Shown: positions 318-59,367 of the stretch, piece by piece
Numbering within the stretch: position 1 is the first letter of the stretch
How the letters are laid out: each line of letters begins with the position of its first letter
NCBI GenBank assembly: GCA_017886875.1
Contig: JAGHIZ010000069.1
Span: 124,001-188,000 of the forward strand
Direction of reading: 5' to 3'
From: Butyricicoccus sp.
GTDB taxonomy: Bacteria; Bacillota; Clostridia; Oscillospirales; Butyricicoccaceae
Length of the DNA: 64,000 nucleotides
Translations under genes and position numbers: made by a program
Notes under the pieces: model-generated
What the model saw: the letters and a program-made list of their open reading frames with translations, nothing else
Told to the model about the DNA's origin: nothing
The model's database searches: none

Positions 318-1346
318 ATGAAAAAAAGCGATTTCTATTTTGATTTACCAGAACATTTAATAGCACAGCACCCGCTAGAAAAACGTGATAGTTCAAGGCT
401 TTTAGTTCTTGACCGTAAAAGCGGTGATGTAGAACATAAACATTTTACTGATGTTATTGATTATATGGAAGCGGGCGATTGTCTTGTTATGAATAATTCA
501 AGAGTTATCCCTGCTAGACTTATGGGACAAGCAGAGGGCAGAACCACACCGATTGAGGTTTTACTACTTACTGACCATGGCGACGGTTTATGGGAATGTT
601 TAACACGTCCAGGGCGAAAAACAAGAGAAGGTACAAAATTATCTTTTGGTGATGGACTTTTAACAGCTACCGTTGAAGCAGTAAATCCAGCTGATGGCAA
701 TAGAATGATACGTTTTAAGTATGATGGTATTTTCTTAGAAATTCTTGATAAACTCGGCTCTATGCCATTGCCTCCATATATTCGTGAAAGACTTGATGAC
801 CCAGAACGTTATCAAACAGTATATTCAAAAACACCAGGTTCAGCCGCAGCACCTACTGCCGGACTTCATTTTACAAAAGAGCTTTTACAAAAAATTGAGG
901 ATAAAGGTATAAAGCTTGTATTTGTAACTTTGCATGTTGGCTTAGGCACTTTCAGACCTGTAAAGGCTGATGAAATCACCGACCATATTATGCATTCTGA
1001 ATGGTATACTATGGACGCTGAAACCGCACAAACTATAAATGATACTAAGAAAAATGGCGGTAAAATTTGGGCAGTGGGCACAACTGCAACCCGTACACTA
1101 GAAACTATTGCAGATGAAAACGGATTTGTTGAGCCAAAATCAGGTTGGACTGATATTTTCATTTATCCAGGATATAAATTTAAAATTGTTGACCATCTTA
1201 TAACTAATTTCCATTTGCCAGAGTCCACACTTATGATGCTTATTTCTGCATTTGCAACCCGTGAACAAGTTATGAATGCTTATAAACAAGCTGTGGATAA
1301 TGAATATAGATTTTTTTCATTTGGCGATTCTATGATGCTTTATTAA
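318..1346 (+). CDS. queA: S-adenosylmethionine:tRNA ribosyltransferase-isomerase
   Basis: 342 aa, the normal family length. QueA moves the ribosyl part of SAM onto preQ1 already inserted in tRNA (Asp, Asn, His, Tyr), giving epoxyqueuosine-tRNA. Family landmarks are present: an N-terminal [12 protein letters not shown], the segment [14 protein letters not shown], the [13 protein letters not shown] block and the C-terminal [23 protein letters not shown] at 306-311 lies 6 bp before the ATG. No tgt or queG lies next to it here. It belongs functionally with the riboswitch-controlled salvage pair near 58-59 kb. A strong terminator follows. Confidence 0.97.
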
Positions 1347-27211: not shown

Positions 27212-27531
27212 ATCTGCAAAACAGCATCGCACAAGGCCGTACTAGTCGGGGAGGTAGCGGTGCCTTGTAACCTGCAATCCGCTCTAGCAGGGATTATGCT
27301 AAGGGCAAGGGGCGGCATCTTGATGTGTGCAGCCAGTCAAATAATGATGACAGATTGGTACTACGCAACGGAGGACTGTGAACCATGTCAGGCGGGGAAC
27401 CGAGCAGCATTAAGCAGAAACCATCGTGTGCCGTAGAACTGCCGATTTCGAGTTATTTCATCGGACACGCCGTTGGGAGCGTCGTTTCAAACCTTTGGCG
27501 TACGGTCTTGTGGGGTGCTGTTTTACAGCAA
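27212..27531 (+). ncRNA. ffs: Signal recognition particle RNA, large Gram-positive type
   Basis: About 320 nt between the PBP gene and dnaX, the usual Firmicute place. The ends pair (5' AAAACAGCA with 3' TGCTGTTTT). An Alu-type part contains TGTAAC at 27266-27271. Domain IV contains GTCAGG (27387-27392), the GGAA tetraloop (27396-27399) and AGCAGC (27403-27408), the Ffh-binding core. The bases closing the tetraloop are CGG/CCG where many species have TCC/GGA, so base pairing is kept. It scaffolds co-translational membrane targeting with Ffh. Ends are estimated. Confidence 0.93.
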
Positions 27532-36334: not shown

Positions 36335-36372
36335 TAAAAAAGGTTTTCGCCCTAATTATAGGACGAAAACCG
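36335..36372 (-). terminator. T-box terminator before pheS
   Basis: On the minus strand: CGGTTTTCGTCC pairs with GGGCGAAAACC, followed by TTTTTTATT. Confidence 0.9.
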
Positions 36373-36604
36373 AAATTTCCGTGGTACCACCTATGTTCAT
36401 TGCGTAAAAAACGCAATGCACTTAAAAGCCTTGTAACGTAGGCAAAACGGACACGCCTACTAGAAAAAATTTTTTCAGCATGTCTGCTCACAGGGGAACT
36501 TCATATATTTACCTTTGAGGCAGCTTTCAGCCGATGACTGCCAATCTCTGACAAAGAAAAAATATACTACTTTTCCTGCTCATCGCAGATGACATATAAA
36601 CACA
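36335..36604 (-). ncRNA. T-box leader of pheST (phenylalanine)
   Basis: About 270 nt on the minus strand. The conserved T-box AGGTGGTACCACGG lies at 36392-36379, directly followed by the terminator. A Phe codon TTC is positioned at 36498-36496 in a stem I-like region and is the likely specifier. Uncharged tRNA-Phe pairs with the T-box and prevents the terminator from forming. Confidence 0.93.
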
Positions 36605-57676: not shown

Positions 57677-58381
57677 TTATTCTTTAATCATATTTCTTTC
57701 TTTCATTGCTCTTGCAAGATATACAATAGGTGTATCTGCAAGTGATGTAACAATGAAAATTACATAACTACTTAATGCAATAGAAACAAGTGTTGGTATA
57801 TCATAAGTTCCCCAGAAAGCAAAGCCTGTGAAAAGTAATGTGTTAAGTAGCTGTGAAATAAGTGTAGAACCGTTGTTTCTTAGCCATAAAAAACGGTGAT
57901 GGTCACCGAATTTTTTATCGGTCAGTTGCCACCAGAAATGATACATATAAACATCAAACGCTTGAGCAATAGCATAAACTGCAAGTGATGCAAACATCAT
58001 TCGAGGTGTGTTAGAGAAAATTGTTTGGAAAGATGAAAACGCAAAATCGTTTGCACTTACTGTATATTGCAGCCATGACTGTGACACCACAATAAACAGC
58101 AGAGAAGTGCCAATACCTATCCAAACCGCTTTTTGTGCAGCGGCTTTTCCCTCAGTTTCCGATAAAATATCAGTTACTAAAAATGTTGTTGCAAATAAAA
58201 TATTGCCTAGTGTCATTTCCATGCCAAAGGCATCAACTAAAAGCAAAACTTCAATATTTGCTGCAATAGTTGCAAACACCGTATAACAATACATACCAGT
58301 TTTACCAAATAGCTTATACCATAAAAGTACAGATGCATAAAGCACAACTAGCGATACAATTAGTAAAACTTCATTTGTCAT
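57677..58381 (-). CDS. yhhQ: Queuosine precursor transporter, YhhQ family
   Basis: 234 aa with about six to seven membrane helices. LGNILFATTFLVTDILSETEGKAAAQKAVWIG and the SLLDTPIVYLAR-like end (SLADTPIVYLARAM) mark the Vut_1/YhhQ family, which brings in queuosine precursors (preQ0/preQ1 or queuine). It is the second gene of a riboswitch-headed operon with the radical SAM gene, 22 bp downstream of it. Start at 58381, where AAAGGGGA lies 8 bp upstream; the longer frame starts inside the radical SAM gene. Confidence 0.93.
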   Translation of the reverse strand: MTNEVLLIVSLVVLYASVLLWYKLFGKTGMYCYTVFATIAANIEVLLLVDAFGMEMTLGNILFATTFLVTDILSETEGKAAAQKAVWIGIGTSLLFIVVSQSWLQYTVSANDFAFSSFQTIFSNTPRMMFASLAVYAIAQAFDVYMYHFWWQLTDKKFGDHHRFLWLRNNGSTLISQLLNTLLFTGFAFWGTYDIPTLVSIALSSYVIFIVTSLADTPIVYLARAMKERNMIKE

Positions 58382-58403
58382 AAAATTTGTCCCCTTTTTT
58401 GCT

Positions 58404-59105
58404 TTAACCCACTCCAAAATCAGTGTTTTCTGTCAAAATATCAACACGAGGATTTTTAATATAAAGCGGGTAAAGCTCTTTCATAAATATTTGCAATACT
58501 TCATTATCAGGACGAATATCTGTTGTATTTTCTACCATTAAATTAATGCAAATACGCTCGAAATATTTAAGACCGATTTCTATATCGTTTTTCATACTTT
58601 CAAGGGTTTGACCTTTTATTCCAAAAAGTAAACAACATTCATCAAATGGTTCAGAAATTATAGCAGGATTAGTTTCTCCTATGCCTTTTTTTAGCACTGT
58701 TTCTCTAAAATCTCGGTCAAATGTTTCTATGCCCGATTTTATTTTTACTGTAACACCTATTTTTGAAAAACGTGCTTTAAATGCTGGGATTTCCTTTCTA
58801 TGTATCCAATGACATTCAAAGTGGAGAGTTTTAATATTCTTATCTTGACATACTTTTTCAATAAGATTAATAGTTTTTTTATCAAGGTCACAAAAAGAAC
58901 CAGAATTTATTACCTCTAAGTGATTATATATACCTGTAACTTTGTTAAGCTCTTTTGAATTTAATTCAAAATTTGCGTTTTCATCTTCACTAAAATCTGT
59001 GTGATAGTCACAAAATGCACAGCGTTTCCATTTACAGCCTGAGCCACGAAGTAACACAATCTCACGAGGGTTTTTGTCATTTATAACAGAATATCGTACC
59101 AACAT
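58404..59105 (-). CDS. Radical SAM protein, candidate queuine lyase (QueL-like)
   Basis: 233 aa. An N-terminal RGSGCKWKRCAFCDYHTD gives Cys24, Cys29, Cys32, a CX4CX2C spacing unlike the usual CX3CX2C, likely to hold the [4Fe-4S] cluster. Later segments (VINSGSFCDL, LHFECHWIHRKEI, KSGIETFDRDFRE) follow a partial radical SAM barrel. In Clostridioides difficile, QueL is a radical SAM lyase turning queuine into preQ1 next to transport and QueK genes. Co-transcription with yhhQ under a preQ1-I-like riboswitch suggests the same role. Start at ATG 59105, 7 bp after AAGGAG. Confidence 0.75.
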   Translation of the reverse strand: MLVRYSVINDKNPREIVLLRGSGCKWKRCAFCDYHTDFSEDENANFELNSKELNKVTGIYNHLEVINSGSFCDLDKKTINLIEKVCQDKNIKTLHFECHWIHRKEIPAFKARFSKIGVTVKIKSGIETFDRDFRETVLKKGIGETNPAIISEPFDECCLLFGIKGQTLESMKNDIEIGLKYFERICINLMVENTTDIRPDNEVLQIFMKELYPLYIKNPRVDILTENTDFGVG

Positions 59106-59128
59106 AGTATATCTCCTTAAATCAAAAT

Positions 59129-59153
59129 AAAAAAAAGTGCTAAAAATTAGCAC
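59129..59153 (-). terminator. Leader terminator upstream of the queuosine salvage operon
   Basis: Minus strand: GTGCTAA / TTAGCAC with a 3-nt loop, followed by T8, ending 24 nt before the radical SAM start codon. Confidence 0.85.
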
Positions 59154-59206
59154 CATCAAAAAGCCCATGACCTTCAAAAGCGAAAAAGCTTTTGACGCAT
59201 GGTTGT

Positions 59207-59246
59207 CCTAGTTTTGTTTAAAGACAGGATGGTTACGAACTGTCTG
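59207..59246 (-). ncRNA. preQ1-I-like riboswitch aptamer
   Basis: Minus strand: stem AGACAG / CTGTCT closes a loop starting TTCG and containing TAACC. After TTTAA comes the A-rich tail ACAAAACTAGG. This is the preQ1-I plan (one short stem, C-containing loop, A-rich tail ending in (C)AAGG or CTAAGG), closest by eye to the Thermoanaerobacter example. The P2 pseudoknot pairing is not obvious. A hairpin (59202-59163) and a terminator follow, then the salvage operon. Confidence 0.72.
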
Positions 59247-59267
59247 ATTAAATTGTATTGCCAAACC

Positions 59268-59295
59268 ATTATAACATGTAAAAAAATAAAATCAA
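59268..59295 (-). promoter_or_regulatory. Promoter of the queuosine salvage operon
   Basis: Minus strand: TTGATT (59295-59290), 16-bp spacer, TATAAT (59273-59268). Start near 59261, giving a ~155-nt leader. Confidence 0.7.
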
Positions 59296-59367
59296 GAGCA
59301 AGTATAAACAAAAATAAAAGTTTATTTGGTAAAATAAAGAAAATAATTGTAAATATCACAAAAATAC

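Follow-up and report, generated by a model that had tools for sequence, protein, structure and literature searches.

Identification of the leader

The question raised by this locus of Butyricicoccus sp. is whether the leader in front of a radical SAM gene is a riboswitch and, if it is, what it senses and through which pairing it acts on the genes behind it. The leader occupies 59261-59106 on the minus strand of the window (the whole stretch of 64,000 nucleotides analysed here), and a direct reading gives an aptamer, a middle hairpin (H2) and an intrinsic terminator, in that order (Table 1). The earlier note, made from the letters alone, took it for a preQ1-I-like riboswitch with a terminator, heading a queuosine salvage operon that preQ1 turns off. 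The top Rfam match and the downstream genes agree with that prediction. Going by sequence and fold models, the leader is very probably a preQ1-I type I riboswitch that works as a transcription-attenuation OFF switch, in which the aptamer loop seems to pair with the terminator foot as antiterminator. From the same sources we infer which ligand is bound and in how many copies, that termination occurs, and in which direction the genes respond.

Table 1. Features of the leader and its operon, other features of the window, and operons under the same motif in other genomes
Feature	Position	Strand	Evidence or remark
Promoter, TTGATT-16-TATAAT, extended -10 (TG)	59295-59268	-	Consensus scan, 10/12 matches
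preQ1-I type I aptamer (probable)	59245-59207	-	RF00522 25.6 bits, E 0.0026; near-invariant in 27 distinct relatives
ACCAUC in aptamer loop, proposed antiterminator strand, including preQ1 specificity C (59228)	59233-59228	-	Predicted pairing with foot
Middle hairpin H2	59202-59165	-	Apical stem compensation at three pairs, 15 leaders
GAUGGU foot, predicted partner of aptamer loop	59157-59152	-	Shares three bases with terminator base
Intrinsic terminator, stem 59154-59136 plus T8 run	59154-59129	-	Terminator scan; 8 pairs, -7.7 kcal/mol
queL, queuine lyase (radical SAM)	58404-59105	-	PDB 6p78, E 3.9e-52 over 231 residues
yhhQ-type queuosine precursor transporter	57677-58417	-	TIGR00697 161.5 bits (cut-off 51); Vut_1 in Pfam
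Terminator-like hairpin, operon end	57673-57642	-	12-pair stem then ATTTTTTT
queA	about 327-1340	+	Same 64-kb window
HGD-D operons	L127:5874-10051 (G264), L129:587-5041 (G182), L130:8056-10496 (G379); also L115 (G327), L116 (G286)		

All of the elements that had been read from the letters were recovered, among them the minus-strand promoter, whose -10 region is retained in the close relatives L002-L005. The stem AGACAG/CTGTCT and its A-rich tail are also present: the stem is P1, with 6 pairs between 59245-59240 and 59227-59222, and it encloses a 12-nt loop, TTCGTAACCATC (59239-59228), with the A-rich strand and tail following at 59221-59207 and ending 3' in ACAAAACTAGG. The middle hairpin, described before as a 40-nt element at 59202-59163, does exist, but it is 38 nt long and ends at 59165. 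The terminator expected just before the radical SAM gene is there, ending about 23 nt short of the queL ATG (59105). Terminator-like sites number seven in the scanned region against 1.2 expected from shuffles, and the leader folds better than 200/200 of its dinucleotide shuffles (z -3.87). A leader peptide starting from an ATG at 59200, after the AGGA of the aptamer tail, was rejected, as the corresponding frames of the relatives vary in length and sequence and, by eye, encode no conserved peptide.

Class assignment of the aptamer

The earlier note would have counted the lack of a significant score to any preQ1 model against its reading, and the search did not show such a lack. PreQ1 (RF00522) is the top match among 4227 Rfam families for the 301 nt searched, at the E value given in Table 1, and its bit score is below the gathering cut-off of 39 bits, hence the aptamer is not reported at that cut-off, which is a database threshold and no structural feature of the preQ1-I class. 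The preQ1-II and preQ1-III models gave no match in 59050-59350 even at E up to 10. Weak matches to SAM-II, freshwater-2, STnc630, DLEU2_4 and tmRNA, all far below their cut-offs, were discarded.

Compared with the published description (PMC11625349), the hallmarks of type I are present: the P1 3' strand is preceded by UC, the P1 5' strand is followed by UU, and the 3' tail contains a C. The type I pocket and ceiling are made up of residues U6, U7, C8, A12, U16, C17, A30, C31 and U32 in the Carnobacterium antarcticus structure (PMC8752633; PMC11625349). All nine of these residues, reported for the two-ligand form, are found here and are invariant in 27 distinct relatives, the numbering being transferred by loop length and motif rather than taken from a solved structure. 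At 12 nt, the loop, UUCGUAACCAUC, is as long as that of the type I structure. Its CC can pair with the GG of the tail, which would give the P2 pseudoknot; both are nearly fixed in the relatives, which makes covariation uninformative for this helix. In the alignment of relatives 99.4% of P1 cells are paired and two of its pairs have changed on both sides, and the A-rich tail motif AAACAAAACUA is retained. The aptamer is near-invariant upstream of queL in 29/30 same-family loci examined and is also found in many other Clostridia, which argues that it is not a chance resemblance.

H2 has the form CCAUGCG...AGGUCAUGG, with both strands nearly fixed in the leaders compared. The compensatory changes in its apical stem indicate that it is a real hairpin, and it is present in both of the states predicted below. 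The ACCAT just after the aptamer normally pairs with CATGG inside this hairpin, one of the two partners that the earlier note had offered for it. The 2-by-4 internal loop of H2 (CG with AGGU) and the flanking CCAUG/CAUGG are almost unchanged, and the same hairpin occurs in L002-L012, L023, L076 and L093.

Downstream genes

The radical SAM gene is queL, which is overlapped by the gene of a TIGR00697/Vut_1 transporter, and the operon is thus one of queuosine salvage, as had been supposed. The TTG listed for the transporter may be upstream of its annotated start. Tgt, QueA, QueC and QueF are also encoded in this genome, and a search of it for QueD returned no match, which makes dependence on salvaged precursors plausible. 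The close relatives of the genome are Butyricicoccus genomes. Two further structured RNAs of the window score above their Rfam cut-offs, a T-box leader at 36356-36592 (-) and a large SRP RNA at 27237-27505 (+).

Predicted switching mechanism

In the proposed mechanism, when preQ1 is absent and the 5' arm of the terminator has been made, the aptamer would refold so that the ACCAUC of its loop pairs with the GAUGGU foot. The P1 3' strand would then pair with the tail (UGUCUU/AGGACA), and H2 would form the third arm of a three-way structure. With the antiterminator occupying the base of the terminator, RNA polymerase would continue into queL and the transporter gene. When preQ1 is bound, probably at two molecules per RNA as with type I RNAs elsewhere, the loop and tail would be retained by P1 and the pseudoknot, the foot would be freed and the terminator would form; precursor import and the conversion of queuine to preQ1 would then cease.

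The folding predictions concern nested structures, with the energies of the pseudoknot and the ligand lying outside the model. Within these bounds, the forced ON fold (loop-foot) comes to -30.0 kcal/mol and the OFF fold to -29.6 kcal/mol, values so nearly equal that a bound ligand could decide between them. The ligand-free ensemble predicts a loop-foot pairing probability of at least 0.99 as long as the 3' arm of the terminator has not been transcribed; once this arm is complete, the predicted probability drops to 0.20 and that of P1 rises to 0.59. The minimum free energy structure of the longer, full-length leader, again ligand-free, is a third fold in which the terminator is kept and the aptamer broken, suggesting that switching is kinetic rather than at equilibrium. 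Since the foot overlaps the terminator by three bases only, the loop-foot ON fold leaves room for 5 bp of the terminator to persist. A tail-type antiterminator was also tried for this leader and did no better than shuffles.

The same folds bear on the switch proposed in the earlier note, in which the ACCAU that follows the aptamer (59203-59199), rather than the loop, is the antiterminator of the same riboswitch and pairs with the AUGGU of the terminator foot (59156-59152). The complementarity is real, and in this leader exact, but it does not make the best antiterminator: the forced fold reaches -22.0 kcal/mol, 8 kcal/mol worse than loop-foot pairing, and its probability is 0.00 at all lengths tested. 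Moreover, CCAUG is taken up by H2 in 15/15 H2-bearing leaders, and several relatives have changed the post-aptamer motif (CCCAUG, UCCAUG) while retaining loop and foot. We therefore consider this version of the switch very improbable.

An ON switch, in which preQ1 prevents termination, would accord with the third fold, where the full-length RNA without ligand keeps its terminator at the expense of the aptamer. However, the aptamer and the terminator are compatible with each other, whereas the ON fold consumes the aptamer loop and the P1 3' strand. Known preQ1-I riboswitches repress (PMC11625349), as fits feedback on an operon that produces preQ1, and a reversed response is accordingly given little credence here.

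Predicted loop-foot pairing in relatives

For the loop-foot antiterminator, the relatives offer a comparison. A foot of the form GRUGGYG before a T run is present within 240 nt in 23/29 queL leaders of the family; 200 shuffles gave 0.34 on average and never more than 3. In three further leaders of the family the foot lies farther away than 240 nt, and the standard foot is missing from L010, L021 and L027. Of the leaders whose label places them outside the family, 47 in all, only one has the foot, and that one comes from the same order. Pairing between the loop and downstream sequence averages 0.91 in the 33 foot-bearing leaders and 0.13 in shuffles, a figure that describes energetics and is no independent test, as the leaders were selected for the foot; nor are the leaders independent samples, given their shared ancestry. 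In L004, L016 and L092 the loop-foot fold is weak or is not the favoured one. G-U changes in L004, L013, L022 and L023 preserve the pairing, and with a loop that barely varies these pairing-preserving changes are the only ones seen, which leaves covariation between loop and foot not demonstrable.

In other clades the role of antiterminator seems to fall to the aptamer tail. Tail pairings read by eye are CUACGG/CCGUAG in L041 and L057 and CUAAGGG/CCCUUAG in L064, a by-eye pattern for which the individual shuffle fractions are mostly 0.03-0.3.

For the Butyricicoccaceae, the modelled folds lead us to propose, with moderate confidence, that the ligand-binding loop doubles as the antiterminator strand, so that ligand and antiterminator would compete for the same bases, the specificity C included. 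The ON structure, three-way and containing the conserved internal loop of H2, would then represent a kind of preQ1 expression platform that has not been described.

Distribution of the aptamer

A second copy of the aptamer is found in the same genome at L060:1495-1541 (G000:C108:15164-15205), ahead of queT-queF, with queC divergent on the other strand. No strong terminator was found at this copy. Both copies were missed by a family-level Rfam search of the genome. The gene context is that of the preQ1-I class, with queL and the transporter at the locus studied, queT-queF at the second copy, and queT, yhhQ or queC elsewhere. This range of contexts, together with the retention of every reported preQ1 contact, makes it most improbable that the RNA is a variant which senses not preQ1 but queuine or some other derivative of queuosine, even if its position before an enzyme that consumes queuine (the substrate of QueL) and its score below the Rfam cut-off would suit such a variant.

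A large clostridial preQ1-I group lies below the Rfam cut-off. R1, a covariance model built from the relatives of this aptamer, has matches in 64/87 same-family genomes and 149/391 Clostridia genomes, and RF00522 at its cut-off in 0/87 and 10/391, respectively; the ratio of the two models is approximate, the sets not being identical and the filters of the genome-scale search being stricter. At 22 of the 28 class-search loci examined, the next gene downstream is queT, queL, yhhQ or queC (ten of the 22 checked with Pfam, the rest read by eye). Of the remaining loci, five have an HGD-D operon and one has no downstream gene in the stretch at hand. Three Clostridia leaders, L052:2272-2337, L054:2374-2427 and L055:2339-2424, have additional sequence in the strand that links P1 to the A-rich tail, in an aptamer that is otherwise intact; the insert of L055 is about 40 nt long and capable of forming hairpins.

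The HGD-D operons, found in five genomes (Table 1), place the preQ1-I motif before a double-cubane-like HGD-D protein and an ATPase activase of the BadF/HgdC type. The HGD-D protein belongs to PF06050, with 6eno and 7yyl as the nearest solved structures, and is below the cut-off of the NCBIfam double_cubane model. Two of the operons continue with genes taken to be queD-queE-folE-queC, where an NCBIfam check identified all four genes in L127 and QueD only in L129, and one continues with a QueT-like gene, by eye. QueF had no match in 5/5 of the genomes with such an operon; some genomes without the operon are also QueF-negative. Hypothetically, HGD-D and its activase might form an ATP-driven preQ0 reductase, an alternative to QueF, or another reductive enzyme of queuosine synthesis. 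A literature search found no paper joining the HGD-D/activase pair and queuosine.

Comparison with known preQ1-I riboswitches

The antiterminator of Bacillus subtilis queC uses the aptamer tail, whereas in the Butyricicoccus leader this strand would be the ligand-binding loop. The two also differ in type, the queC aptamer being type II, with AC preceding the P1 3' strand, and that of Butyricicoccus type I. They are alike in the logic of the response, as in queC a pseudoknot stabilised by the ligand favours an intrinsic terminator and turns expression OFF (PMC11625349). The type I aptamer of C. antarcticus (RF00522, PMC8752633) resembles the present one in its 12-nt loop, the UU after the P1 5' strand, C8 and A12, the UC before the P1 3' strand, the A-rich strand, the tail ACUA and the queuosine genes downstream. 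However, the type I examples reviewed act on translation (PMC11625349), while the Butyricicoccus leader has a terminator and scores below Rfam gathering.

The nearest precedent for the operon is in Clostridioides difficile, where a preQ1-I riboswitch precedes queK-qrtT-queL (PMC11477304). By description, the two share the aptamer class and the control of queL along with a precursor transporter; the Butyricicoccus operon differs in having no queK and a transporter of another family. As control of queL by preQ1-I has already been reported in C. difficile, the locus adds a member to an established class with an established regulatory role, and what is likely to be new is the large group below the Rfam cut-off and the probable loop-type antiterminator. 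A literature search found no paper linking preQ1 with Butyricicoccus.

The Rfam cut-off thus hides a large clostridial preQ1-I group (10 versus 149 genomes), and the leader described here is a compact system whose single loop seems to be contested by ligand and antiterminator. For the organism, the prediction is that preQ1 regulates an enzyme which consumes queuine in a lineage of gut Clostridia, a point of relevance to the competition for queuine in the gut.
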